A stretch of DNA of 12,196 nt from Bryobacterales bacterium. Lineage in GTDB: Bacteria > Acidobacteriota > Terriglobia > Bryobacterales > Bryobacteraceae. A program made the translations under genes and the position numbers. Each line of letters begins with the position of its first letter. The first letter of the stretch is position 1. Below are positions 1 through 12,196 of this stretch, piece after piece. Location: the NCBI GenBank assembly GCA_009697495.1, contig SHUN01000029.1, positions 1-12,196 of the forward strand. The letters are read 5' to 3'. Below the pieces are notes generated by a model. That model was not told where the DNA came from. It did no database searches and worked only from the letters and a program-made list of their open reading frames with translations.

Positions 1-144
1 CAGTAACTTCGACGCTGGGCTTGGCGGGATCGGTGTTTCGGCAGCGGAGGTGAAGTTACAACAATCGAACTGACTTACTCAATTACCGGTCGCGGCAACC
101 GAGCAGAATCAGAGCTCGGGCGCTGATCCTGTGCATAATTCAGG

Positions 145-438
145 TTGAACCTCTTCTATTCCACGGACAACATCACATTTACGTCTCTCGTCAGCAACAT
201 CATCCCCACTGACCACGCGGTGGTCAATTACGCGGCTGACGTGATCTCGTTCGGTGGGGCCGTAGATGCCCGTTACGTCCGCTTCGATATGTCCAACTGC
301 CCTCAGCCGAACGGCGGGTCCTTCGTGGCCTGCGCGATCGGCGAAGTGGCGTTTTCTGCGATTCCGGAACCATCCTCCATGGTTATGTTCGGCTTGGGCC
401 TCGCGGCTTTGGTCGGCGCGCGCTTCCGCAGATCCTAA
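145..438 (+). CDS. PEP-CTERM sorting-signal protein, 3' fragment
   Basis: The last 25 residues form a PEP-CTERM tail: Pro-Glu-Pro (IPEPSS), a hydrophobic helix (MVMFGLGLAALVGA) and a basic end (RFRRS). In PEP-CTERM/exosortase systems such a tail sends an exported protein to an exosortase for processing at the cell surface. The preceding part (LFYSTDNITFTSL, and ARYVRFDM) resembles the beta-sandwich of small secreted PEP-CTERM or discoidin-like proteins. The open frame starts at a weak TTG (145) with no ribosome binding site and no signal peptide, so this is not an intact gene. Upstream in the same frame, 7-123 reads as plausible protein (GEVTTIELTYSITG) but ends at TGA 124-126, and a second stop, TAA, lies at 136-138. 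It is probably a decayed gene or one carrying sequence errors. The tail is clear; the rest of the protein is not recognised. Confidence 0.6.
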   Translation: MNLFYSTDNITFTSLVSNIIPTDHAVVNYAADVISFGGAVDARYVRFDMSNCPQPNGGSFVACAIGEVAFSAIPEPSSMVMFGLGLAALVGARFRRS

Positions 439-471
439 ATTTTCAGCGCTGGCATTCGACATGGCATGAAT

Positions 472-499
472 GGGCGGCCCTTGCCAGCTAGGTCCGCCC
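472..499 (+). terminator. Candidate terminator hairpin after PEP-CTERM gene
   Basis: GGGCGG (472-477) pairs with CCGCCC (494-499). The stem extends inward by two pairs past one mismatch, around a 10-nt loop. It begins 33 nt after the stop codon at 438. The following bases (TATAATTTG) are AT-rich but not a clean T-run, so this is a likely but imperfect intrinsic terminator. Confidence 0.4.
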
Positions 500-612
500 G
501 TATAATTTGACTCACTGGATTGAGCTTGGCCGTGGCCGGTTTTAGACCCCACCGCTTGCCACAATTGCGTCTTTGCGCGCGTCCACTCACTCCCGCGTTA
601 CTCCGGGGACTT

Positions 613-654
613 ATCGAGCGCGGACTGATCTATCAGTCTCAGATCGCGCTCGAT
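613..654. repeat. Long nested inverted repeat (hairpin)
   Basis: ATCGAGCGCG (613-622) and CGCGCTCGAT (645-654) are perfect 10-bp inverted arms. Directly inside, GACTGA (623-628) pairs with TCAGTC (633-638) around a TCTA loop. A 6-nt bulge, TCAGAT (639-644), sits on one side only. It lies 26 nt past the stop of the leftward HerA-like gene, where a transcript end is expected, but no T-run follows on either strand. It may be a structured 3' end, a REP-like unit or a mobile-element remnant. The rest of 439-680 shows no gene that I can support. Confidence 0.6.
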
Positions 655-680
655 GAGGGGCGCTACGCAGTGTACCCGAA

Positions 681-2786
681 TTATCCTAAAAACGACAGAT
701 GGAGACCCCTCCAGCAAAGCGAAAACAGCTTCACCTGAATATTCGTCTTCTTCGGGGTAATCACCACCGTCGCGAACTGCTCATTCAACGTGTCGAATTG
801 AGCCGCCAAGGCTGCAATCTCCTCCTGCAACTGCTGCTCCAGAACCGTCCGCTGCTCCAACGTCGCCTCCAAATTAGCCTCCGCCCGGTCCACGTCTTGC
901 CCCTCCCGGCTTGCCCTCCCAAATGTCCGCGCCGCCGCCCCCACGCCCGACATCGCCGACTTCGTCAGGAACCCCCGGCCCATCAACGCCCCCAACACGG
1001 AAGTCGCAATCGACAACCCCGTCTGCACTTTAGACTGCGCGGCCTCCTGCTGCTGCTTCTCCACCATCTGCTGCGCCCTCCGAACGCGCTCTTCCAGCAT
1101 CGCCAGCTTCGGCCCGTACTTCTGCCGCAACGCCGCAACAGCCTCATCCCGCGCCTCATGCGCCGCAGTCGTCAGCCTCACCCGAAAGTCGCGCTCCGAC
1201 TCGCCCGGATTCGACACCCGCTTCAAACGCACGCTCTGCAGCATCTCCAATTTCTGCGTCGCGAACAGCCAATGGGTGAACTCTTTACTCCACAACGCAT
1301 ACGACTTCACTTTCCCCGCCACCGCCGACAACTCCGCAAACGACGCTCCATCCAACGGCGCATCTTCCAACTCCGCCAACTCCATGTCCAACTCCTCGGC
1401 CTGCTCCCAGTTCACGGCCACCGGCCCACTCGCAACCAGCGTGCAGAACTTCACTTCGCGGGAATAATCCACCTTCGTCTTCGCATCGGTGAACCGCACT
1501 AGCGCCACGCCCAGCAACATCGGCTCATACGTCACGCCGCTCGTCGCGCGCACCGGCAGGAAGTGCTGCTCAATATCGGGCGGCATCACCGGCCGCGCCG
1601 TCCCCACGCCTTCCAATACCCGCTTCGGCGCAGCTTCCGTTGCGACAACCGCCTTCTTCTTAGACTCCATCAAAATCTTGATCTGCGCCCGCGTCAACGG
1701 CCCGCTCAAATACGACAGCGTCCACCGCGTCTCGAACACTTCCAATGCGCCGCGATGCACATTGCTCATCAGGAAAATGCGGCTCTTCAAACTCGACAAC
1801 AGCCTCTCCAACGCGCCCCGGTCCGCTGACCCGCCCGCCGCCGCCGCCGCGCCTTCCAAGCCCTCAATCAACCGCATCTTATCGCGCTCCGTTTGCAGCC
1901 GGCCAATGAACCAGGTCCCGCAATTGGAAAGGCCCTTGTAGTCCAGATCCACCGGATTCTGCGTCGCCAGCACAACGCCAACGCCGAATGCCCGCGCCTG
2001 TTTTAACAGCGTCAACAACGGCTGCTTCGACGGCGGATTCGCCACCGGCGGAAAATAGCCGAAGATCTCGTCCATGTAAAGCAGCGCCCGCAGACTCGAC
2101 GTCCCCGGCTGCGTCCGCATCCACGAAACCATCTGATTCAACAGCATCGAGACAAAAAACATCCGCTCCGAATCGCTCAAATGCGCGATCGAAAAAATCG
2201 ACATCCGCGGCCTGCCCTGCGCCGTATATAAAAGCGACCCGATATCCAGCGGGTCGCCCTCCAGCCATGCTTCAAACCCCGGCGACGCCAACAGATTATT
2301 CAGCGCGATCGCCAACTCGAACCGGTCCTTCGACGGGTAAAAAGATTCGATTTCCATCACGCCAATCCGCGTCACCGGCGGCTTCTGAATCTGTTGGATC
2401 AGCGTCGCCAAGTCCAAATCGGAACCGGCCATCCACGCGTTCTCAATCAGCTTGCTGAGCAAAATATGCTCCCGCGATTGCATCGGGTCGGCTGTCATGT
2501 TCATCAAAGCCAACAGCGCCGTCGCCGTCGATTGAATCCGCTCCCGCATCGCTTCGCGGTCTTCCCGCATCTCCTCCGGCGGCGCGCCGAAAGACCGAAG
2601 CACCGACACCGGAAACCCAGCCGAAGAACCCGGCGTGTAAATCGTAAAGTCAGCCGCGTCGCGCAGTCTCCGCACCCGCGCGCCGTCCTGCCCCCAATCC
2701 GCCAAACCCTGCTTCCACTTCGAAGCCGTCTCCTCGGCAAACTGCTCGCGAGTCAAGCCCTTTTTCCGCGCCTCTTCTTCATTCAC
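681..2786 (-). CDS. HerA-like ATP-binding protein (DUF87 type), main C-terminal part of split gene
   Basis: This is the larger part of a HerA/FtsK-fold P-loop ATPase. Visible motifs are a Walker B strand ([13 protein letters not shown], about 2048-2088) and the sensor/arginine region [14 protein letters not shown] followed by GRLQTERDK, typical of HerA-like ATPases. The C-terminal third has two long charged or Gln-rich coiled-coil helices flanking a Gly/Ala segment, and the protein ends shortly after [13 protein letters not shown]. There is no Walker A here; that lies in the upstream fragment (2783-3043). The GTG at 2786 overlaps that fragment's stop as GTGA, but this frame already reads as family-like protein upstream of the GTG ([14 protein letters not shown]). 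The two parts are therefore one gene split by a one-base frame change at about 2816-2822. Rejoined, the protein is 787 residues. Its substrate and biological role are unknown. Family assignment is confident. Confidence 0.85.
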
Positions 2787-3043
2787 CCACGGCGCGAACT
2801 CCTCCGTCGCCAGGCCGGGAAATTCAGCAGCAGGTTGGACAGGTCGCCCTTGGGGTCAATAATCAATGCCGGAATGCCGTCAATCGCCGCCTCCTCCAGC
2901 AGTCCCATGCACAGGCCCGTCTTGCCGCTCCCCGTCATCCCAACGCAAACCGCGTGCGTCACCAAATCCTTGGAATCCAGCAGCAGAGGGCCGTCTTCCT
3001 TCTTGCCGAGATAGAACACGCCGAGTTTTTCAAAATCCTGCAT
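2783..3043 (-). CDS. HerA-like ATP-binding protein, N-terminal Walker A part of split gene
   Basis: The first 76 or so residues of the same ATPase. The Walker A P-loop GMTGSGKT is at residues 35-42, followed by [14 protein letters not shown], the second conserved strand of HerA-like proteins. After LLLNFP the frame turns into low-complexity [10 protein letters not shown] and stops, while the -1 frame continues with sensible protein. The first 76 codons are therefore genuine and the last ten are out-of-frame tail. The ATG at 3041-3043 has no ribosome binding site; a -10-like hexamer only 7 nt upstream suggests a leaderless transcript. The gene is divergent from the PfpI-like gene, with 24 bp between their start codons. 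Without repair or frameshifting, the P-loop and the Walker B would sit on separate polypeptides. Confidence 0.8.
2816..2822 (-). other. Frame-change site: TTTCCCG heptamer in the HerA-like gene
   Basis: On the minus strand the N-terminal frame reads AAT TTC CCG GCC. Slipping back one base at T TTC CCG gives TTT CCC GGC CTG, and the protein continues as [10 protein letters not shown] in the main frame. The heptamer has the X XXY YYZ form in the right phase. An ordinary one-base deletion or sequencing error in the TTT/CCC/GG runs would look the same and is the simpler explanation. Confidence 0.6.
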
Positions 3044-3050
3044 AGGCTCT

Positions 3051-3056
3051 AGTCTA
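3051..3056 (-). promoter_or_regulatory. Candidate -10 of the HerA-like gene (leaderless)
   Basis: The minus strand reads TAGACT, a TANNNT -10 hexamer, exactly 7 nt before the ATG at 3043. Transcription would start at or next to the start codon. No convincing -35 is visible. It shares the TA at 3055-3056 with the plus-strand -10. Confidence 0.5.
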
Positions 3057-3060
3057 CAAT
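3055..3060 (+). promoter_or_regulatory. Candidate -10 of the six-gene operon (leaderless)
   Basis: TACAAT matches TATAAT in five of six bases and ends 7 nt before the ATG at 3068, which predicts a leaderless mRNA. There is no Shine-Dalgarno sequence in the gap (CGCGAGT), which agrees. No clear -35 is visible; any such element would lie inside the start of the divergent gene. Confidence 0.5.
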
Positions 3061-3067
3061 CGCGAGT

Positions 3068-3592
3068 ATGGAACTAAAAGGTAAGAAGGTCGCAATCCTC
3101 GTCGACCAGATGTATCAGGAGATGGAAGTTTGGGTGCCCATCTATCGTTTGCAGGAGGAAGGGGTCGAAGTAATCACCGTCGGCGCCGAAGCCGGGAAAG
3201 TCTATCCCAGCAAGCTCGGCTATCCCTGCACCGCGCAGAAATCCTACGCCGAAGTGGCCGCCGATGATTTTGACGGAATCATCGTCCCCGGTGGCTTCGC
3301 GCCGGATCATATTCGCCGCCATCCGAAGGCCAATCAACTCGTCGCTGACATCAACGCGCAAGGGAAACTGGTCGCCGCCATCTGTCACGGCCCGTGGGTG
3401 CTCTGCTCGGCCTACGGTATGTTGAAAGGCCGCAAAGTCACCAGCTTCTTCGCCATCAAAGACGACGTGATTAACGCCGGCGCCGAATGGTCCGATGCCG
3501 AAGTTGTTATCGACAATAATCTCGTCACCTCGCGCAAGCCGGAAGATCTCCCCGCCTTCTGTCTCGCCTGTGTCAACGTCCTCAAGAAGTAA
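3068..3592 (+). CDS. DJ-1/PfpI family protein (type 1 glutamine amidotransferase fold)
   Basis: A 174-residue, single-domain DJ-1/PfpI protein of normal length. The nucleophile elbow AICHGPWVL places Cys106 followed by His107. Glu20 in QEMEVWVP matches the Glu that hydrogen-bonds the nucleophilic Cys in this family, and [10 protein letters not shown] is the usual glycine-rich loop. There is no signal peptide, so it is cytoplasmic. Family members act as proteases, chaperones, deglycases or glyoxalases; which applies here cannot be read from the sequence. The ATG at 3068 follows a -10-like TACAAT by 7 nt, so the gene probably heads a leaderless transcript. It is followed after 8 nt by the PQQ dehydrogenase and is likely the first gene of the operon. 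A role in detoxifying reactive aldehydes made by the dehydrogenase is possible but only inferred. Confidence 0.93.
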
Positions 3593-3600
3593 ACTTGATT

Positions 3601-5247
3601 ATGCTTCGTCTCGCAATTCTGTTCGCCGCCGCGGCCGTTCTAACCGCCCAGGACGGCGCCACGCGCGAAAATTGGCCCCACTACGGCGGCCAAACCAGCG
3701 CCTGGCGCTACAGCGCGCTCGATCAAGTCAACGCCGCCAACGTCAAGAGCCTCACCCCCGTCTGGAGCTTCCAAACCGGCGACAACGAAGGCGGCCTGCA
3801 AGCCACGCCCATCGTCATCGACGGCGTCATGTACATATCCACTTCGCACAACCGCGTCTTCGCCATCGACGCCGCCACCGGCCGCGAACTCTGGATCTAT
3901 CACTACGAACTTCCCAAAGGCTTCACCATTTTCTACGGCCCGTGGAACCGCGGCGTGGCCGTCGCCGATGGCCGTGTCTTCATGGGCACGCTCGATAATC
4001 ACGTCGTCGCGATCGACGCCAAAAACGGTCGCCAGCTTTGGAAAGTCAACGTCGAAGACGCCAATCAATGCGGCTGCAACATCACCGCCGCGCCCCTGGT
4101 TGTCAAGGGGAAGGTCATCGTCGGCGTCACCGGCGGCGACTCCGCCCACCGCGGTTACATCAACGCCTTCGATGCCAGGACCGGCCGTCAATTATGGCGC
4201 TTCTGGACCATCCCCGGTCCCGGCGAAAAAGGCCACGAAACATGGACCGGCGATAGCTGGAAATTCGGAGGCGGCGCCGCTTGGATGACCGGCTCCTACG
4301 ACGCCGATCTAAACCTCACTTACTGGAGCGTCGGCAACCCGGCAGCCGATTTCTGGGGCGGCAATCGCAAAGGCGACAACCTCTACACCGATTCCGTCGT
4401 CGCGCTCGATCTCGACACAGGCAAGCTCAAATGGCACTATCAACAGGTGCCGCACGACGTTTGGGATTGGGACACGGCCTATGAAAACGTGCTCCTCGAT
4501 TTGCCCGTTAACGGCCGCCAACGCAAGCTTCTGCTCAACGTCAACAAGGGCGGCTACACGTTCATCGTTGACCGCGTCAACGGCGAATTCGTCGCCGCCT
4601 GGCCGCTCGTCAACAACCTCAACTGGATCACCGGCGTCGGCCCCAAAGGCGAACTGCTCGGCCGCAATGAGCCCGTTGTGGGCAAGTCGAAAATCATCTG
4701 CCCTTCCATCGGCGGCGGGCGCAGTTGGAATCAGGGCGCGTGGTCGCCAAGGACCGGCATGTTTTATTCCACCGGCATTGAATGGTGCGAAGACGTCGTC
4801 GCCGTGCCCGAAACACCCAAAGCGGGGCAAGTCTATTTCGGCGGCACGTTCAAGCTGACGCACAAGCCGCTGAAAGGCGAAGCGGGCGGGCATTTGGGGG
4901 CCTACGATCCCGTTACCGGCAAGCGCGCCTGGCTCTACGAATACAAATACCCGCTGCTCGCCTCCGTCCTCGCCACCGCCGGCGACGTGATTTTCACCGG
5001 CGACGCCGATGGCTTTTTCTTTGCCCTCGACGCAAAATCCGGTAAGAAATTGTGGAGCTTTCAAACCGGCTCCGGCCACCGCGGCAGCGCCGTCACTTAC
5101 TCGGTAAACGGCCGTCAATTCGTCGCCACGCCCACCGGCTGGGGTTCCGCGCTCGCCGGCCTGCTTCCCCAAATCTGGCCCGAAACGGAGCGCCTCCGCT
5201 CCGGCTCCGCCGTCTTCGTATTCGCCCTGCCGGAGCCCGCCAAATGA
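3601..5247 (+). CDS. PQQ-dependent alcohol dehydrogenase, exported, lanthanide-type Asp-x-Asp motif
   Basis: A 548-residue quinoprotein dehydrogenase. The start is ATG 3601 rather than TTG 3595, because it opens a clean signal peptide (MLRLAILFAAAAVLTA). Propeller W-motifs recur (TGRELWIYHY, NGRQLWKVNV, TGKLKWHYQQ, SGKKLWSFQT). The active-site region is visible: GDSWKFGGGAAW by the PQQ pocket, metal-ligand Asn246 in SVGNPAADF, and catalytic Asp289 in HDVWDWD with Asp291 two residues on. That extra Asp is the signature of lanthanide-using XoxF/ExaF/PedH enzymes. The usual metal-ligand Glu appears as Asp180 (GGDSAHRG), and the adjacent Cys-Cys of methanol dehydrogenases is absent at YGPWNRG. 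The enzyme should oxidise an alcohol or aldehyde in the periplasm and pass electrons to a cytochrome c. The next gene encodes one and overlaps it as ATGA. Substrate unknown. Confidence 0.93.
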   Translation: MLRLAILFAAAAVLTAQDGATRENWPHYGGQTSAWRYSALDQVNAANVKSLTPVWSFQTGDNEGGLQATPIVIDGVMYISTSHNRVFAIDAATGRELWIYHYELPKGFTIFYGPWNRGVAVADGRVFMGTLDNHVVAIDAKNGRQLWKVNVEDANQCGCNITAAPLVVKGKVIVGVTGGDSAHRGYINAFDARTGRQLWRFWTIPGPGEKGHETWTGDSWKFGGGAAWMTGSYDADLNLTYWSVGNPAADFWGGNRKGDNLYTDSVVALDLDTGKLKWHYQQVPHDVWDWDTAYENVLLDLPVNGRQRKLLLNVNKGGYTFIVDRVNGEFVAAWPLVNNLNWITGVGPKGELLGRNEPVVGKSKIICPSIGGGRSWNQGAWSPRTGMFYSTGIEWCEDVVAVPETPKAGQVYFGGTFKLTHKPLKGEAGGHLGAYDPVTGKRAWLYEYKYPLLASVLATAGDVIFTGDADGFFFALDAKSGKKLWSFQTGSGHRGSAVTYSVNGRQFVATPTGWGSALAGLLPQIWPETERLRSGSAVFVFALPEPAK

Positions 5248-6176
5248 GACTCTGGCCACAACTGCCCGCCCCCTCTCCGCCTCCGGCGAATCCGGCCCAC
5301 GCCATTCCGGCCCACGCCATTCCCGCGCACGCCAATCCCGCGCACGCCGTTCCGAGGCGCGACCGTAAGGGAGCGCTCCTGCCCGTCAAAGCTCTTTACC
5401 TGACAATCGCGCTTCTGCCCTCCGCCATCGCCCAACCCGACCCGGCCATCGCCCGCGGCGACAAACTCTTCGCCCAGGGCTGCTCGGTCGGCTACTGCCA
5501 TGGCGCAGGCGGTTCCGCCGCCCGCAGTCCCCGTCTCCGCGGCCGCGCTTTCGATCGCGACTACCTCATCAAAGTGATCCGCAACGGTATCCCCAACACC
5601 GCCATGCCCGCCTGGGGCGATCGTCTCACGGATGCCGATATCGGCGACCTCGCCGGCTACATTCAAAGCCTCGCCACAGCCCCCATCAACGTCGCCGCCG
5701 GTCCCTCCACCGATGGCCCCGCCGCGCCCGCAATCGAAAAACCCATCGACATCCCTGCCGAATTCCAGAACGGTCGAGACCTCTTCTTCGATCTCACCCG
5801 CGAAACCCGCTGCTCCGTCTGCCATCGTCTCAACGGCTTCGGCACCGCAGCCGGTCCGGACATCACCAAATCTGCCGCCATCAAAGTCACCGATGGCCCG
5901 CAAGTCCTTCGCTTTGGCCGCCCCCGCGGCGTCCGTACCATCGTCCTCAAAAACGGCGAACGCTTCGCCGGCGCCACCATTGAGCGCAACGCCTCGCTCA
6001 CCCATGTCTACGACCTCAACTCCAATCCACCCGTGCTTCGCCATCTCCAGAACACCGATATCCAGTCCATCCAGCGTCAGACCAATTGGCGTCACCGCAG
6101 CGTCGTCCGCGGTTATACCGTCGAAGATCTGCAGTCCATCTGGAACTATGTCCGCTTCATCGCCGCCAAGAAATAA
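5244..6176 (+). CDS. Diheme c-type cytochrome, likely electron acceptor of the PQQ dehydrogenase
   Basis: A 310-residue exported cytochrome. The first c domain has an unusual haem site, CSVGYCH (Cys80, Cys85, His86), which is CX4CH rather than CX2CH, with a likely axial Met in NTAMPAWGD. The second domain has a normal CSVCH (Cys190, Cys193, His194). Its C-terminal part carries a beta-rich stretch (VRTIVLKNGERFAGATIE) seen in large Acidobacteria/Planctomycetes cytochromes. The start is ATG 5244, overlapping the dehydrogenase stop. This places about 47 residues of Pro/Ala/His-rich sequence, encoded by a tandem repeat, before the signal helix (KALYLTIALLPSAIA, residues 49-63). No normal start codon lies at that helix: the codon just before it is GTC, so the original start may have been lost. 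The likely role is taking electrons from the PQQ dehydrogenase towards an oxidase. Confidence 0.9.
   Translation: MRLWPQLPAPSPPPANPAHAIPAHAIPAHANPAHAVPRRDRKGALLPVKALYLTIALLPSAIAQPDPAIARGDKLFAQGCSVGYCHGAGGSAARSPRLRGRAFDRDYLIKVIRNGIPNTAMPAWGDRLTDADIGDLAGYIQSLATAPINVAAGPSTDGPAAPAIEKPIDIPAEFQNGRDLFFDLTRETRCSVCHRLNGFGTAAGPDITKSAAIKVTDGPQVLRFGRPRGVRTIVLKNGERFAGATIERNASLTHVYDLNSNPPVLRHLQNTDIQSIQRQTNWRHRSVVRGYTVEDLQSIWNYVRFIAAKK
5289..5354 (+). repeat. 15-bp tandem repeat, four full units plus a partial one
   Basis: Units start at 5289, 5304, 5319 and 5334; a partial fifth begins at 5349. The consensus is AWTCCSGCSCACGCC, with small changes between copies. Because the unit is a multiple of three, it is translated as (N/I)PAHA repeats at the N-terminus of the cytochrome. 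It lies just inside the dehydrogenase/cytochrome overlap. Confidence 0.9.
5355..5385. repeat. Palindromic module next to the tandem repeat, possible REP-like dispersed element
   Basis: The block contains GCGCGACCGTAAGGGA followed by the perfect 10-bp palindrome GGAGCGCTCC (5370-5379). From memory, similar 'GCGACCGTNAGGGAGCG' modules, read in reverse as RSLTVAAR-like peptides, are common in Solibacter-type genomes. That recollection has not been checked. It sits between the tandem repeat and the real signal peptide of the cytochrome. Confidence 0.45.
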
Positions 6177-6179
6177 GGC

Positions 6180-7094
6180 ATGAGCGAACCCTGCATTCAA
6201 GTCACCGGGCTGAAGAAACACTACGGCTCCGTCGAAGCCGTTCGCGGCATCGATTTCACCGTCGAACAAGGCGAAGTCTTCGGACTTCTCGGCCCCAACG
6301 GCGCTGGCAAAACAACCACCGTTGAAATCCTCGAAGGCCTCCGTCAACGCACTTCGGGCGATGTTCGCGTGCTCGGGTTTGACCCCGCCGCCGACACCCG
6401 CGCGCTCAAAGAACGCATCGGAGTCTGTCTCCAGGCAACCAACCTTCCCGACAAGATCAAACTCCACGAAGCCATGCGCCTCTTCGCGTCGTTTTATCAA
6501 AAAACCGTCGATGCCGACGGACTGCTCAAGCGCCTTCAGCTTTCCGAAAAACGCGACGCTATCTACAGTTCGCTTTCCGGCGGCCAGAAGCAGCGCCTCG
6601 CCCTCGCCATGGCCATGATCAACGATCCTCAGTTGATCTTCCTCGACGAACCCACCACCGGCCTCGATCCCCAAGTCCGCCTGGAAATTCACAAGCTCAT
6701 TCTCGAACTCCGCGACAAGCAGCGCACGATCGTCCTCACCACCCACTACATCGAAGAAGCCGAGCGCCTCTGCGACCGCGTCGCCATCATCGACCAGGGC
6801 CGTATCATCGCCATCGGCGCGCCCCGCGAACTGATCGCCAATACCTTCGGCGCCTCTCGCATCGAAATCCGCCTCGCGCTTCCGCTCCCTCTCGACGAAG
6901 CGCCGCCCGGCGCCGCCGTATTCAACGCCGATCGAACCCTGCTCACCGTCACCGCGGAAAAGCCCGCCCGCGCCATCGTCGACTTCGTCAAATGGATCGA
7001 CCAGCGCGGTCTCGAACTCGCCGACATCCAGCTTAAACATCCCACTCTCGAAGCCGTCTTCCTCGAACTCACCGGCCGGAGCCTCCGCGACTAA
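6180..7094 (+). CDS. ABC transporter ATP-binding protein (ABC-2/DrrA-like exporter)
   Basis: A 304-residue nucleotide-binding subunit with all motifs intact: Walker A GPNGAGKTT (residues 38-46), signature LSGGQ (132-136), Walker B LIFLDEP (152-158, catalytic Glu157), D-loop TGLDP and switch His189 in TTHYIEEAE. Beyond about residue 215 there is the C-terminal domain common to CcmA/DrrA-type export ATPases. It is cytoplasmic and powers the permease encoded one base downstream (ATG 7096), with which it must form the transporter. It starts 3 nt after the cytochrome stop, so it is in the same transcription unit. The fold and the neighbour point to an exporter of the ABC-2 class, whose members move drugs, lipids, polysaccharides or haem-related cargo. 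The cargo is not identifiable here. Confidence 0.95.
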   Translation: MSEPCIQVTGLKKHYGSVEAVRGIDFTVEQGEVFGLLGPNGAGKTTTVEILEGLRQRTSGDVRVLGFDPAADTRALKERIGVCLQATNLPDKIKLHEAMRLFASFYQKTVDADGLLKRLQLSEKRDAIYSSLSGGQKQRLALAMAMINDPQLIFLDEPTTGLDPQVRLEIHKLILELRDKQRTIVLTTHYIEEAERLCDRVAIIDQGRIIAIGAPRELIANTFGASRIEIRLALPLPLDEAPPGAAVFNADRTLLTVTAEKPARAIVDFVKWIDQRGLELADIQLKHPTLEAVFLELTGRSLRD

Positions 7095-7095
7095 C

Positions 7096-8799
7096 ATGAA
7101 GCCCTACCTCACCAACATCGCAATCACGCTCCGGCTGATGTCCAGGGACCGCATGGCCATGTTCTTCGGCTACGTCTTCCCGCTCATTTTCTTCTTCCTA
7201 TTCGCGCAGATGATGGAGGCCGGGCAGGGCGGCGGCGTCGCCAAGCAAGTTGTCACCATGGTGCTCATCTTCGGTGTCCTCGGCAATGGCTTCTTCGGCG
7301 CCGGCATGCGCGCCGTCTCCGATCGCGAACAGAACATTCTCCGCCGCTTCAAAGTAGCGCCCACAACGGCCGCGCCGCTTCTGGTCAGTTGGCTCGTCAC
7401 CGGCTGGATTAACTACATTCCCTCCGCTTTGTTCCTAATCTCCATCGGCCACTTCGCCTATCAAATGCCCTGGCCCGAACGCCCCTTCACGCTCTTCTTT
7501 TTCATGAGCGTCGCCGTGCTCGCCTTCCGCTCGCTCGGCCTCATCATCGCCTCCGTCGTCAACGGCATGCAGGAAAGCCAGATTCTCATCCAGCTTTTTT
7601 ATCTGCCCATGCTCTTTCTAAGCGGCGCCACCTTCCCCGTCAGCGCGATGCCGCAGTGGCTGCAAATCCTCGCGCAGTTCATCCCCTCGGCCCATCTCTT
7701 CGCCGGTCTGCAAGGAATTCTGCTCCGCCAGGAAGGCCTCGAAACCCAATGGAAAAGCCTCCTCGCGCTGTTCCTCACTCTGATCGTCGGCATGTTCATT
7801 TCCGTCAAATTATTCCGCTGGGAGAAGGAGGAAAAGGTAAAGGCTTCGGCGAAACTGTGGGTCGTCGCCGCGCTCGCGCCCTTCCTGCTTCTCGGTGTCT
7901 ATCAGGCCTACAGCAAGGAAGGTCTGACTAAGGCCAAAGTCCTGCAACGCGAACTCCGCCGCAGCCGCACGCTGCTCGTTCGCGATGTCCGCCTGTTCAT
8001 CGGCGATGGCCGCGTCGTCGAACGCGGTGCCTTGCTGGTACGCGACGGCAAGATCGCGCAGATCTTCGAAGGCGATGCGCCGGACGCCAAAAAACTCAAT
8101 GCCGATCCCATCGAAGGCAGCGGCAAGACGCTACTGCCCGGCCTCATCGATGCCGATGTTCATCTCGCCGGCTCATCAAAATCCGTCGAATGGAGCCACG
8201 CGGCTTATCTTTTCTGTGGCGTCACCGCCATCCGTTCCAGCGGTGATCTCGCCGTGCTCAAAGAAAAAGTCGCCAACGGCGAGCGCCTCGCCAGCGAAAT
8301 CTTTATCATCGATAACCTGCCAACCTCGGGCCTGACAGCGCTCGAAGCCGTCAACGCGCCCAAGGCCGAACTGCTCGAAAGCAGCCTCGTCCAACAAGTC
8401 GCGCCGAAGGGTCTGCTCGATAAATTGCGCCCGCTCCTCGCCAAGGCGCCCGCCAAGGAATTGTCGCTGCCTCCTCCCAGTGCGAACAGCGTCGCCGGTT
8501 CCGGCTCTGGCCACAAATTCGTCATCCACGGCCCCGGAATTCATCGTGAACTTGTGCTGCTAGTCCAAGCTGGCCTCACGCCGAACGAAGCCCTGCAAGC
8601 CGCCACCGGTCGCGCCGCCGCCGCTCTCGGCGCGGCCAATCGGATTGGCTTCCTTAAACCCGGCATGGAAGCCAATCTCCTTCTCGTCGACGGCAATCCC
8701 CTCATCGATATCACCGCCACCGAGCGCATTTCGATGGTCGTCTTCCGCGGCGAGCGCATCGTTCGCGCCGATCTGTTTGAACACGAGGAACCACAATGA
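7096..8799 (+). CDS. ABC-2 permease fused to a shortened amidohydrolase-like domain
   Basis: A 567-residue fusion. Residues 1-240 are an ABC-2 membrane domain with six likely helices (about 21-40, 51-71, 93-118, 129-152, 162-180, 221-240), including the family stretch LFYLPMLFLSGATFP. A seventh hydrophobic segment (253-271) follows. Residues 292-562 resemble an amidohydrolase of the imidazolonepropionase type: an N-terminal beta-sandwich (VRDGKIAQIF), PGLIDADVHL (348-357), then IHRELVLLVQAGLTP and LKPGMEANLLLVDGNP. The metal-binding His-x-His is Asp354-x-His356, the catalytic Asp region reads GSGSGHKF, and the barrel between about 400 and 470 is much shorter than normal. Enzyme activity is therefore unlikely. 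The seventh helix would put this domain outside the cytoplasm, though basic residues on both sides weaken that. It pairs with the ATPase gene before it and overlaps the next gene as ATGA. Confidence 0.88.
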   Translation: MKPYLTNIAITLRLMSRDRMAMFFGYVFPLIFFFLFAQMMEAGQGGGVAKQVVTMVLIFGVLGNGFFGAGMRAVSDREQNILRRFKVAPTTAAPLLVSWLVTGWINYIPSALFLISIGHFAYQMPWPERPFTLFFFMSVAVLAFRSLGLIIASVVNGMQESQILIQLFYLPMLFLSGATFPVSAMPQWLQILAQFIPSAHLFAGLQGILLRQEGLETQWKSLLALFLTLIVGMFISVKLFRWEKEEKVKASAKLWVVAALAPFLLLGVYQAYSKEGLTKAKVLQRELRRSRTLLVRDVRLFIGDGRVVERGALLVRDGKIAQIFEGDAPDAKKLNADPIEGSGKTLLPGLIDADVHLAGSSKSVEWSHAAYLFCGVTAIRSSGDLAVLKEKVANGERLASEIFIIDNLPTSGLTALEAVNAPKAELLESSLVQQVAPKGLLDKLRPLLAKAPAKELSLPPPSANSVAGSGSGHKFVIHGPGIHRELVLLVQAGLTPNEALQAATGRAAAALGAANRIGFLKPGMEANLLLVDGNPLIDITATERISMVVFRGERIVRADLFEHEEPQ

Positions 8800-11222
8800 A
8801 GCATCTCCGTTTGATCCTGATTCTCGGAGCCATCGCCCTCGTCTCCCAGCCCATTTGGAAGCGCATCGCCGGCCGCCAGCCCGACGGAACCTATCTCCTC
8901 CCCACCGGCCAAACCGTCCGCCCCTTCGGCAAAATCATCGAAGTTAAGGACCGGCCGCTCGGCATCGCCATGTCCCCCGATGGCCGCATCGCCGCCGTCG
9001 TTACCGGCTCTAATTTCACGGACCGCGCGCTCCATCTTGTCGACATCGCCACCGCCCAACTCACCCAGACGCTCCCAATCGCCGACAGCTTCACCGGCGT
9101 CGTTTTCACCCCCGATGGCAACACGCTCTATGTCGGCGGCGGCTCCTCCAACGCCGTCCACATCTTCACTCGTACCGGCGCAAAGCCATTCGCCCGTGCC
9201 GATACCATCCCGCTCCCCAACAGCGCCCCCAGCGGCCTCGCCCTCAGCCCAGACGGCCAGTTCCTCTTCGTCGCCTGCAACCAACGCCACGCCGTCGCCC
9301 GCATCACTCTCGCAACCAAAAAAATCGATTTCTGGACCACCGGCAGCTATCCCTACACCGTCGCCATCGCCAACGGAAAACTCTTCGTCTCCAACTGGGG
9401 CGGCCGCAAACCTCTCGCCACTGACACCACCGACGGCGTCCATCCCGTCGTCGTTGATAAACGCACCGGCATCCCGTCTTCGGGAACGGTATCCGTTTTC
9501 GACATCACCACCGGCGCGCTGACCACCGAGCTCGAAGTCGGCCTCCACCCCAGCGCCCTCGCCCTCTCACCCGATCTGTCCAAGCTCTACGTCGCCAACG
9601 CCAATTCCGACACCGTCGCCCAGATCAACACCGCTACCGCGAAACTCGAACGCACTATCGCCGTGCCGCTTTATAAGAAGGCCCCGCTCGGCAGTTCCCC
9701 CAACGCATTGGCCGTTCATCCCGATGGCAAGACGCTCTTCGTCGCCAACGGCGCCAACAACGCTGTCGCCGTCGTCGATCTGCCCTCGGCGAACGTAAAG
9801 GGATTCCTCCCCGCGGGCTGGTATCCCACCGCCGTCGCCCTCACCAATGACAGCAAGCAACTCCTGATCGCCAACGGCTACGGCTTCGGCTCCGTCGCCG
9901 CTACCAAAGCCAACGGCCGCAGCTACAAAGACCGCGCCGGCGTCGTCTCCATCGTTCCGTTAACCGAACTCAACAACCTCGCCCGCCACACCGCTCAAGT
10001 TTTGAAGGACAACCGCTCCGGCCAATCGGGCAAGGGGCCAACGCCCAAACCGATCGAGCATGTCATCTACATCATCAAAGAAAACCGCACTTACGATCAG
10101 ATTTTCGGCGACATGCCCGAAGGCAACGGCGCTCCCGAACTCGCCATCTTTGGCCGCGAAGTCACGCCCAATCACCACGCCCTTGCCGAGCAGTACGCGC
10201 TCCTCGATAACTTCTATCAACCGGCCGATCAGTCCGCCCTTGGTCACCGCTGGTGTACCCAGGGCTACGCCAGCGACTGGGTGTTCAAATACAGCAACGG
10301 CCGCAACGACCAGAACCCCATGCTCTTCGCGCCCACCGAATTTATCTGGGACAACGCCCGCCGCCACGGCGTCAGCGTCCGCGCCTTCGGCGAGCGCGGT
10401 CTCAACACCGTCGAACCCAGCGCCGCCACGTGGACCGACATCTACAACGACTGGAAGCAAGGCACCCGCAAAGTCAGTATCACGCCCCGCGCCATCATCG
10501 TCGGCCTCCGTGAAATCTACTCGAGCAAAGTCCCCGCCTACGATCTCCGCATCCCCGATCAAGTGCGCGTGGACCGCTTCCTCGAAGAGTTCCACGCCGC
10601 CGAGAAAACCAACTCCGTTCCCAAGCTCAGCGTGCTGCTCCTGTCGCAGGATCACACCTCCGGCACCAGCCCCGGCTTCCCCACGCCGCGCGCCATGGTG
10701 GCCGATAACGACCTCGCGCTTGGCCGTCTGGTCGAGGCGGTTTCCAACTCAAAACTCTGGCCCAAGACCGCCATTTTCGTGGTGGAAGACGACGCCCAAT
10801 CCGGCGTCGACCACGTCGACGGTCATCGCACGGTGGCGCTAGTCATCAGCCCCTACACGCGCGGCCGCAAGACGGACAGCACCTTCTACACGACCATCAA
10901 CCTGTATAAAACCATCGAGCAGCTCCTCGGCCTTCCCCCGCAAAACCAATTCGACGTGGCCGCCGACCCGATGTTCCCGGTGTTCATGAAAACTGCCGAT
11001 GCGGCCCCGTTTAAAGCCCAGCCAAACCACATCAAGCTCGATGAAATGAATCCGCCGCTGAAGGCGCTCAAAGGCAGGATGCTCGATCTCGCCAAGGCCT
11101 CGCAAGCCATGGATCTCGACGAGCCCGACGTCGCGCCGGAGGGCCTGCTGAACCAGGCGATCTGGCACTCCGTGAAGGGGCCGGATACGCCGTATCCCGC
11201 TTTCCGAAAAAACATGCGATAG
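8796..11222 (+). CDS. YVTN beta-propeller / phospholipase C-acid phosphatase-like fusion protein
   Basis: An 808-residue protein. A hydrophobic N-terminus (LRLILILGAIALVS) acts as signal or membrane anchor. Residues about 50-400 form a YVTN/NHL-type propeller with about seven blades; repeats such as PLGIAMSPDG, FTGVVFTPDG, PSGLALSPDG and PNALAVHPDG are evenly spaced. From residue 421 the phosphoesterase domain begins with EHVIYIIKENRTYD: Glu429-Asn430-Arg431-Thr432 match the ENRS/T motif of the phospholipase C/AcpA superfamily. SQDHTSG and EDDAQSGVDHVDGHRT (664-679) supply later metal ligands. It should be an extracytoplasmic phosphomonoesterase or phosphodiesterase; its substrate is unknown. 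Its start overlaps the permease stop by 4 nt. It is the last gene of the operon: TAG at 11220-11222, with no clear terminator after it. Confidence 0.93.
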   Translation: MKHLRLILILGAIALVSQPIWKRIAGRQPDGTYLLPTGQTVRPFGKIIEVKDRPLGIAMSPDGRIAAVVTGSNFTDRALHLVDIATAQLTQTLPIADSFTGVVFTPDGNTLYVGGGSSNAVHIFTRTGAKPFARADTIPLPNSAPSGLALSPDGQFLFVACNQRHAVARITLATKKIDFWTTGSYPYTVAIANGKLFVSNWGGRKPLATDTTDGVHPVVVDKRTGIPSSGTVSVFDITTGALTTELEVGLHPSALALSPDLSKLYVANANSDTVAQINTATAKLERTIAVPLYKKAPLGSSPNALAVHPDGKTLFVANGANNAVAVVDLPSANVKGFLPAGWYPTAVALTNDSKQLLIANGYGFGSVAATKANGRSYKDRAGVVSIVPLTELNNLARHTAQVLKDNRSGQSGKGPTPKPIEHVIYIIKENRTYDQIFGDMPEGNGAPELAIFGREVTPNHHALAEQYALLDNFYQPADQSALGHRWCTQGYASDWVFKYSNGRNDQNPMLFAPTEFIWDNARRHGVSVRAFGERGLNTVEPSAATWTDIYNDWKQGTRKVSITPRAIIVGLREIYSSKVPAYDLRIPDQVRVDRFLEEFHAAEKTNSVPKLSVLLLSQDHTSGTSPGFPTPRAMVADNDLALGRLVEAVSNSKLWPKTAIFVVEDDAQSGVDHVDGHRTVALVISPYTRGRKTDSTFYTTINLYKTIEQLLGLPPQNQFDVAADPMFPVFMKTADAAPFKAQPNHIKLDEMNPPLKALKGRMLDLAKASQAMDLDEPDVAPEGLLNQAIWHSVKGPDTPYPAFRKNMR

Positions 11223-11230
11223 GACGTGCC

Positions 11231-11413
11231 CTAACGCTCGACGGCGCAAAGCCGAATGCTGATCTGCCGCGCCCGTCCAGTCCGTAATCTCAGCAGCGAG
11301 TCGGGTCTTGCCGTAATCACTTGCGCCGCGCCAATCGTTCGATAACGGCGCTCGCCGTCCACGGCATGGTCCGGAACCGTCAATGAAAGCGGGTCGTCGC
11401 GATGCCGTGGTTC
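11231..11413 (-). pseudogene. BrnT-like toxin remnant, frameshifted
   Basis: Reading leftward, one frame gives HRDDPLSLTVPDHAVDG and then ERRYRTIG (11404 to 11330). This fits the middle of BrnT ribonuclease toxins, which have a 'DPLSLTIPD-H--GEERY-TIG' core. About 11324-11271 then reads best in another frame (ASDYGKTRLAAEITDWTG), and the first frame resumes as ARQISIRL to a TAG at 11231-11233. The N-terminal half is missing and no BrnA antitoxin gene is visible. BrnT normally cleaves RNA and is neutralised by BrnA; this copy cannot make a complete protein. The similarity is judged by eye and could be wrong. It ends 8 nt from the stop of the convergent operon. Confidence 0.45.
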
Positions 11414-11427
11414 CTCTCGTGTTCAGA

Positions 11428-11850
11428 TCATGCATTGGCCGTTCGAAGCCGTTTATGCAGGACCGCTTCGGCGAGCTTTCGCTCGCGTGCGCGACCGTCC
11501 CGTAAAGCATTGGCCAATGCCAGGTACGCGTGAAAACAGGAGTCGCGCAACGCGGCAATTGGCGCCGCCTTATACAACGGGGCAAAGGAAACAGCACGCA
11601 CGTCCCCATCTGTGATGGCCCACACCGGCATAGGTTCGCTCCCCGGCGCGATCAGGCTGCGCAACGGTTCCGCCGGGTACGACGTCGGAACTCCGCGAGT
11701 CAGTTCGCCGCGTTCGGACGGAAAGATGTAGTTCAATCCATGTACCAAAAACTCTTCCACTGCCGCGATGTTCGGCCGGTGATTCAACTGGGACCCGTGG
11801 AGCAAATGGCATGTCTGCGCCCGTTTGACACAGGCGTGGACTCCAACCGC
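11428..11850 (-). pseudogene. Conserved HTH-type protein, C-terminal part, interrupted by IS3 element
   Basis: The frame from 11850 to the TGA at 11428-11430 encodes about 140 residues with the character of a real protein. It begins GVHACVKRAQTCHLL, which looks like the recognition-helix end of a winged helix-turn-helix. It continues with EEFLVHGLNYIFP, RGVPTSYPAEPL, VRAVSFAPLYKAAP and ALRDGRARERKLAE. I recall a conserved bacterial family with these blocks (VHGxxYxFP, TRGxPTS, LYxxxP, LADALRxGRARER), often encoded beside a nucleotidyltransferase gene as a toxin-antitoxin-like pair. The name and role are uncertain. Upstream, the frame meets a TGA at 11857-11859 inside the IS end, so the N-terminal helices are missing. 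The gene was most likely split by insertion of the IS3-type element. Confidence 0.6.
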
Positions 11851-12196
11851 TGCGTGTCAAGAACTTTGAGACACTCAGCGAAATCATTGAATGCGTTTTC
11901 CTTTCTGCAGGAGTCGATGAGTCGGGCTTGTTGATCCAGCCTTTTTCCGGGAACGGATTGACGACCGGAGCTTTGCGGACAAACCGTTCCGGATGAGCCA
12001 GATAGGCTGCGTCCATGATGCGTTGGCGCTGGGCTTGGCCGAAGTGAACCATGGCGGGCGTCAGTAACGCAATCCCGGAATGGCAATGTTGGTCGTTGTA
12101 CCAGGCGAAGAATTCCTGACAAAAGGCGCGGCAATCCTGAATACAGCCGAATCGATCCGGGAAGCCGGGCCTATATTTCAAAGTGCGAAACTGGCT
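11851..12196 (-). mobile_element. IS3-family insertion sequence, 3' end; runs off the window
   Basis: The element carries the end of an IS3-type transposase read leftward from the right edge. Its left boundary is placed at about 11851-11855, where the coding frame of the interrupted host gene begins and where the terminal-repeat-like TGTCAAGAACTTTGAGACA (11855-11873) lies. IS3-family elements end in TG...CA, and both 11851 (TGCG) and 11855 (TGTC) start with TG. The other end and the target duplication are outside the window. Confidence 0.65.
11855..12196 (-). CDS. IS3-family transposase (OrfB, rve integrase domain), C-terminal fragment
   Basis: The frame is open from the edge: SQFRTLKYRPGFPDRF, then CRAFCQEFFAWYNDQHCHSG, then IALLTPAMVHFGQA and HPERFVRKAP, ending at the family hallmark WINKP (about 11924-11938). 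This is the end of the DDE integrase domain; the Glu of the DDE triad and the two Asp residues lie off the edge. After WINKP the frame stays open through the IS end and into flanking DNA, reaching a stop only near 11570. The native stop has therefore been lost or shifted. The TGA at the end of GCATTCAATGA, in another frame, may be the original terminator after a small indel. The family is certain; the exact end is not. Confidence 0.8.

Follow-up and report, generated by a model that had tools for sequence, protein, structure and literature searches.

Why does a membrane transporter keep an enzyme domain whose active site is gone? The question is raised by a gene at 7096..8799 of contig SHUN01000029.1 (Bryobacterales bacterium, assembly GCA_009697495.1), of which we analyzed positions 1 to 12,196, hereafter the window. 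In a single frame of 567 amino acids (aa), this gene encodes a DrrB/NodJ-like ABC-2 permease followed by a seventh hydrophobic helix (TM7) and a broken amidohydrolase domain. Comparison with related fusions demonstrated that the enzyme, complete in other members, has decayed several times, the window protein being one instance; the original prediction, made from the window alone, could not see this. The pattern suggests that the transporter needs the shape of the domain more than its chemistry.

Fusion protein and lost active site

The fusion consists of the following parts, all on the forward strand:
7096..8799, +: open reading frame of the permease–amidohydrolase fusion (567 aa), a short form that lacks the catalytic set
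7096..7818, +: ABC-2 permease domain, residues 1–241
7843..7914, +: TM7, residues 250–273, with conserved K253, W255, P262, F263, G267, and Q270
7972..8151, +: N-terminal beta part of the amidohydrolase fold, residues 293–352, with PGLID at its end
8155..8157, +: codon of Asp354, where the first metal His (HxH) would stand
8322..8323, +: approximate junction at which about 131 barrel residues (P0101 427–557) are missing
8503..8505, +: codon of Gly470, where the catalytic Asp of G-T-D-S-G would stand
8524..8766, +: conserved C-terminal part (HGPxIHRE ... DGNP ... GERI), residues 477–557

The permease scored above the gathering threshold of PF01061 (ABC2_membrane; 78.9 bits, cut-off 26.9) and below the curated subfamily scores of drrB (52.7 versus 223.05 bits) and nodJ (39.1 versus 206.65 bits); judged by these scores, it appears related to DrrB and NodJ and outside both curated subfamilies. 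The protein search scored 8000 candidates, of which 3208 had E ≤ 1e-3. Among the best 120 listed, eight further records (P0002–P0009) shared the length of 567 aa and were 98–100% identical to the window protein. These records confirmed the predicted joining of permease, seventh helix, and degenerate amidohydrolase in one frame, and they excluded the assembly error that the original prediction had named as a possible refutation. Moreover, locus L031, from the metagenome-assembled genome 'Candidatus Sulfopaludibacter sp. SbA3', was 98% identical over residues 95–567, its contig starting at that point. The pairing already figures in the naming of database records ('imidazolonepropionase-like amidohydrolase/ABC-type multidrug transport system permease subunit'); no published account of a permease–amidohydrolase fusion or of its decay was found in the open-licence PMC literature.

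The C-terminal domain of the window protein retained the fold and homology of CC2672/Xaa-Pro dipeptidase-type amidohydrolases. With high-rmsd Foldseek alignments set aside when the domain limits were drawn, 250 of its residues aligned to 2p9b, compared with 372–392 residues for the intact form in its four best matches. At the six positions that constitute the metal and catalytic set of the active enzymes (HxH, Lys, His, His, and Asp), the window reads D, H, gap, gap, gap, and G, such that five of the six residues are gone. The beta/alpha barrel is likewise incomplete, the block corresponding to P0101 427–557 being absent. The earlier view of an enzyme domain kept on a transporter after loss of its catalytic residues was therefore borne out.

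Repeated decay among related fusions

We gathered 228 fusions, of which 167 remained after removal of near-copies and 163 after four incomplete rows were set aside. These comprised 79 intact forms, 9 of full length with a substituted residue, 24 of medium length, and 51 short forms like that of the window. The check proposed with the original prediction, whether homologues keep the HxH motif and the Asp, was thus answered by the 79 fusions that hold all six positions, in which the Xaa-Pro-dipeptidase/CC2672-like enzyme is complete.

In the 51 short forms, the missing block starts at P0101 420–434 and ends at 525–557, and in certain rows it consists of two gaps with few residues aligned between them; the likeness of the gap edges may partly reflect co-alignment, and segment lengths vary between lineages. 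None of the 51 has a counterpart of Lys476 or His513 of P0101, and the His533 column holds a gap in 48, Gly in two, and His in one (L069). The first-His column is occupied by Gly (12), Arg (9), Asp (6), Ser (6), Gln, Asn, and Ala (4 each), Trp (2), and others, and the former ligand columns share no common replacement.

A first tree was built from window residues 1–350 with 124 rows, namely all 84 non-intact fusions and 40 of the 79 intact ones. It required 14 changes between intact and non-intact states, at least nine of them forced by starred branches, and 13 between short and other forms, at least seven of them forced. A second tree, from the permease alone with five outside rows, required 15 and 17 changes, respectively, with 9 and 7 forced. 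Although unpolarised, these changes were read as losses, because the rebuilding of a complete, conserved site after its deletion is unlikely. The trees were quick ones in which many forks stay open, and groups and rows were chosen after the first tree.

A single loss followed by inheritance was also considered. Approximately unbiased (AU) tests on permease trees, using 52 rows picked by hand after the first tree, rejected one clade of 32 non-intact rows (p-AU 2.35e-5) and one clade of 21 short rows (p-AU 7.6e-71). The tree of the C-terminal remnant alone (90 columns) likewise rejected one short clade (1.7e-5), which leaves wholesale swapping of one dead domain across lineages unsupported. In this remnant tree, which has few starred forks, the window's group (10 rows, starred) forks with the intact pairs L012/L088 and L042/P0082 (support 90, unstarred), as it does in the permease tree. 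The decay thus occurred repeatedly and, at least for the most part, in place.

We searched six genomes (G100, G099, G144, G149, G192, and G000, the last 62.6% complete) for an intact fusion paralogue and found no match of the expected strength; free, secreted-looking amidohydrolases were present in them.

Finally, we compared 49 sequence pairs (16 degenerate, 30 intact, and 3 mixed), keeping values at 0.1 < dS < 2, with the reservation that the pairs are interdependent and that dS is often high. For degenerate pairs (12–15 values per region), the median ratio of nonsynonymous to synonymous substitution (dN/dS) was 0.07 for the permease, 0.14 for TM7 plus the N-terminal beta part, 0.24 for the middle, and 0.13 for the C-terminal part, versus 0.079, 0.076, 0.099, and 0.076 for intact pairs (22–30 values per region). 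Relaxation is thus clear in the middle and mild in the other parts of the domain; all values stay well under 1, which demonstrates purifying selection on the remnant.

Possible role of the remnant

We propose that the fusion serves as the permease subunit of an ABC exporter, with its ATPase encoded directly upstream. The C-terminal domain, tethered by TM7 and most likely extracytoplasmic, would derive from a CC2672/Xaa-Pro-dipeptidase-like metallo-amidohydrolase that probably cut amide bonds of an exported or nearby compound. The metal site of this domain decayed and a block of its barrel was deleted in the lineage of the window, as happened independently in other lineages, with the beta-sandwich/C-terminal core retained. 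The remnant is probably a scaffold that holds the outer face of the permease dimer or receives or gates cargo, a role that in HlyB falls to the dead C39-like domain, there on the inner face. That the window encodes an exporter whose outer-face domain, once a working amidohydrolase, is now a structural or cargo-handling part seems to us an even call. The broader reading, of a fused metallo-peptidase-like domain that died several times in one family, lost overlapping barrel parts, and kept a core whose role in transport is separable from catalysis, is held more tentatively, at somewhat less than even confidence.

Several observations weigh against this scaffold proposal. The domain-less permease L111 has lost the whole domain within a starred clade holding intact members, such that the remnant was dispensable there. 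Every domain part, above all the middle, shows weaker constraint in degenerate pairs than in intact ones. The remnant and permease trees disagree in places, with the short pair L048/L051 joining the window's fork and P0068/P0075 joining another short group, which could reflect local exchanges or recombination of the middle segment. The stretch following TM7 is also basic (median net charge +4), contrary to the positive-inside rule. The tree conflicts and the weakened constraint seen throughout the dead domain slightly lowered our confidence in repeated conversion and raised, marginally, that in the domain being a decaying passenger.

Such a passenger would have eroded stepwise after catalysis lost its value, the leftover being tolerated since it folds and not being used. 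The graded series of full-length dead, medium, short, and absent domains fits this course, as do L111, which lacks the domain entirely after TM7 and is nested among intact members, and the relaxation seen in the middle and, mildly, elsewhere. However, about 60 positions from residue 245 onward are kept in at least 90% of the 51 short rows, dN/dS medians stay at 0.13–0.14 on the N-terminal beta and C-terminal parts, and short forms recur in several lineages against one nested complete loss among the places examined. We regard a mere passenger as unlikely, while giving it real weight.

The original prediction favored a binding or sensing module; read as a sensor or substrate-binding module, the domain would still hold a ligand in its old pocket. 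His478 (96%) and Glu485 (92%) of the HGPxIHRE motif are indeed kept in the short forms, and HG is seen in the aligned enzymes as well. In opposition to this idea, the former ligand columns scatter, a large part of the barrel expected to enclose the pocket is missing, and many scaffold positions stand at 90–100%; W255, P262, G267, G343, P348, D352, G375, G479, T504, G518, G533, P535, G552, and R557 do not vary across the 51 short forms. A conserved core with scattered ligand columns fits a scaffold better than a reused pocket, and we consider binding through the old site improbable.

Placement on the periplasmic side, also suggested originally, fared better. ABC-2 permeases typically have six helices, with both termini facing the cytoplasm. 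Since the segment between TM6 and TM7 (FRWEKEE) is basic and conserved, and TM7, which is hydrophobic, conserved, and about 24 residues long, would then cross, the tail is expected outside. Signal-peptide-like starts, judged by eye, were found on 9 of 9 free amidohydrolase frames (L126, L127, L134, L135, L136 twice, L137, L138, and L139), and the amidohydrolase encoded by a separate gene at L140 bears an N-terminal anchor. Domain-less permeases end shortly after TM7 (L111, L114, and L117/L141) or in a short unrelated tail (L112), which indicates that TM7 is part of the permease and does not belong to the enzyme alone. Although the stretch past TM7 is basic, we take an extracytoplasmic placement to be the more probable. 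If TM7 did not cross, the domain would lie in the cytoplasm near the ATPase, possibly as a regulator; the basic stretch past TM7 would suit this arrangement, whereas the character of TM7 and the signal-peptide-like starts or anchor of the free relatives speak against it, and we assign it a low probability. A new, metal-free catalytic activity, for which the conserved His478 and Glu485 might be invoked, is hardly credible, as both are at least as conserved in intact enzymes and so need no new role, and as the listed conserved positions of the short forms include no new polar cluster.

Regarding the domain-less permeases, L112, L113, L114, and L115 lie on long branches, and L111 alone was counted as a loss. 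No domain remnants were found near L111, L112, L114, or L113 (tblastn, E 1). L113 (4079–5602) is a distant ABC-2 permease with another C-terminal extension past its membrane part, which suggests that permeases of this kind accept varied tails.

If the scaffold proposal is right, these fusions amount to a natural experiment repeated several times, with an enzyme's shape kept on a transporter once the chemistry is lost; forms of the same exporter with an intact, a dead, a half-deleted, or no domain could be compared side by side, and it would become testable whether exporter-fused hydrolases serve mainly as cargo handlers. For annotation, labels of the type 'imidazolonepropionase-like amidohydrolase/ABC permease' can cover dead enzymes.

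Distribution, gene neighborhood, and known systems

The fusion is common in the window's family, apparently Bryobacteraceae, and was seldom met in genomes drawn from elsewhere in the phylum. By hand count of the listing, 132 of 200 genomes of the family, including that of the window, reached E ≤ 1e-60 with their best match; domain-less permeases account for at least two of these (G026 and G142). The contig loci kept (80 of 202) are titled Bryobacterales or Bryobacteraceae, unspecified Acidobacteria, Terriglobia, or Acidobacteriaceae, apart from a few that name other phyla and may be mislabelled. Within the family draw, 7 of 12 genomes of the window's genus had a match, again including its own. 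The phylum draw, whose listed part contains few members of the window's family besides its own genome, yielded 4 of 297 genomes at this threshold: the window's genome, a domain-less permease (G455), an enzyme encoded as a separate gene (G234), and a full but distant fusion (G398, 26% identity). The very distant fusion at locus L119 (361–2565, −; 26% identity) shares the domain order in another family and may be old or independent.

The neighboring genes are as follows:
3068..3592, +: DJ-1/PfpI family protein, a frequent operon partner
3595..5247, +: PQQ-dependent alcohol-dehydrogenase-like quinoprotein, between the DJ-1 and ATPase genes
5052..6176, +: c-type cytochrome, its true start probably within the frame
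6180..7094, +: cognate ABC ATPase, DrrA/NodI-like (304 aa)
8796..11222, +: YncE-like propeller and phosphoesterase protein, overlapping the fusion stop by four bases

The ATPase gene adjoins the fusion in the window, and it does so in 75 of 79 loci. A DJ-1/PfpI gene lies upstream in 33 of the 60 loci with at least 4.5 kb of upstream sequence. A tie between this neighbor and decay is not claimed: the raw counts are 21 of 25 degenerate versus 9 of 30 intact loci, but independent pairs show nothing. The quinoprotein and cytochrome genes stand between DJ-1 and ATPase in the window, L033, L035, L037, L088, and L100, and are missing from L034 of the window's clade; the propeller/phosphoesterase gene occurs 3' of the fusion only in that clade (L031–L037). 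From this gene company, our guess for the cargo would be a small amide, peptide, or carbonyl-stress product. The quinoprotein scored above the cut-off for PQQ alcohol dehydrogenase and strongly, below cut-off, for 'acido-empty-quinoprotein group A'.

Elsewhere in the window, a HerA-like ATPase (681–3043, −) is seemingly split into two overlapping frames of 86 aa (DUF87 match) and 701 aa; the longer piece matches within one long frame in L033–L035, and a frameshift or a sequencing error are both possible for the window. The C-terminal part of a PEP-CTERM protein (145–438, +) shows a weak F5/8 type C match below cut-off. A gene at the contig edge (11573–12196, −), matching an integrase core (rve_3), is likely an insertion-sequence transposase.

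Among known systems, DrrAB/NodIJ-type ABC-2 exporters share the permease domain and ATPase partner with the window; their models end ahead of TM7 and carry no C-terminal domain. The free enzymes Xaa-Pro dipeptidase, arginine carboxypeptidase CC2672, and ochratoxin-degrading ADH3 (2qs8, 3mtw, and 8ihq) have the same fold, and their six ligand positions are common to the intact fusions; the window protein is without five of these residues and about 131 barrel residues. The original prediction would have been undermined by homologues encoded as two separate genes, and one such locus exists, in another family of the phylum: L140 (4740–8715) sets the window's three functions side by side as an N-terminally anchored amidohydrolase–CIA30 protein, an ABC ATPase, and an ABC2_membrane_3 permease. 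It is unfused, its enzyme motifs are apparently intact, and its permease is of a different ABC-2 subtype; it therefore supports functional coupling and leaves the fusion standing.

The C39-like domain of HlyB is described as devoid of protease activity, yet needed to recruit and tether cargo (PMC8277102, PMC6363468). PCAT/AMS exporters (C39 peptidase) and HlyB resemble the present fusions in bearing a hydrolase domain on an ABC exporter that is active in some and dead but retained in others. The window fusion differs in its amidohydrolase fold, in the C-terminal rather than N-terminal position of the domain, and in its ABC-2 permease with a separate ATPase; given this fold and position, with no N-terminal C39 fold, membership of the PCAT/C39-like family can be excluded, and any likeness would lie in the way of working. 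Unlike the HlyB domain, that of the window probably occupies the outer face and not the cytoplasm, and its dead forms have several origins and are missing a portion of the barrel. If repeated conversion is true, the retained core would be an extracytoplasmic counterpart, on ABC-2 exporters, of the C39-like domain of HlyB.
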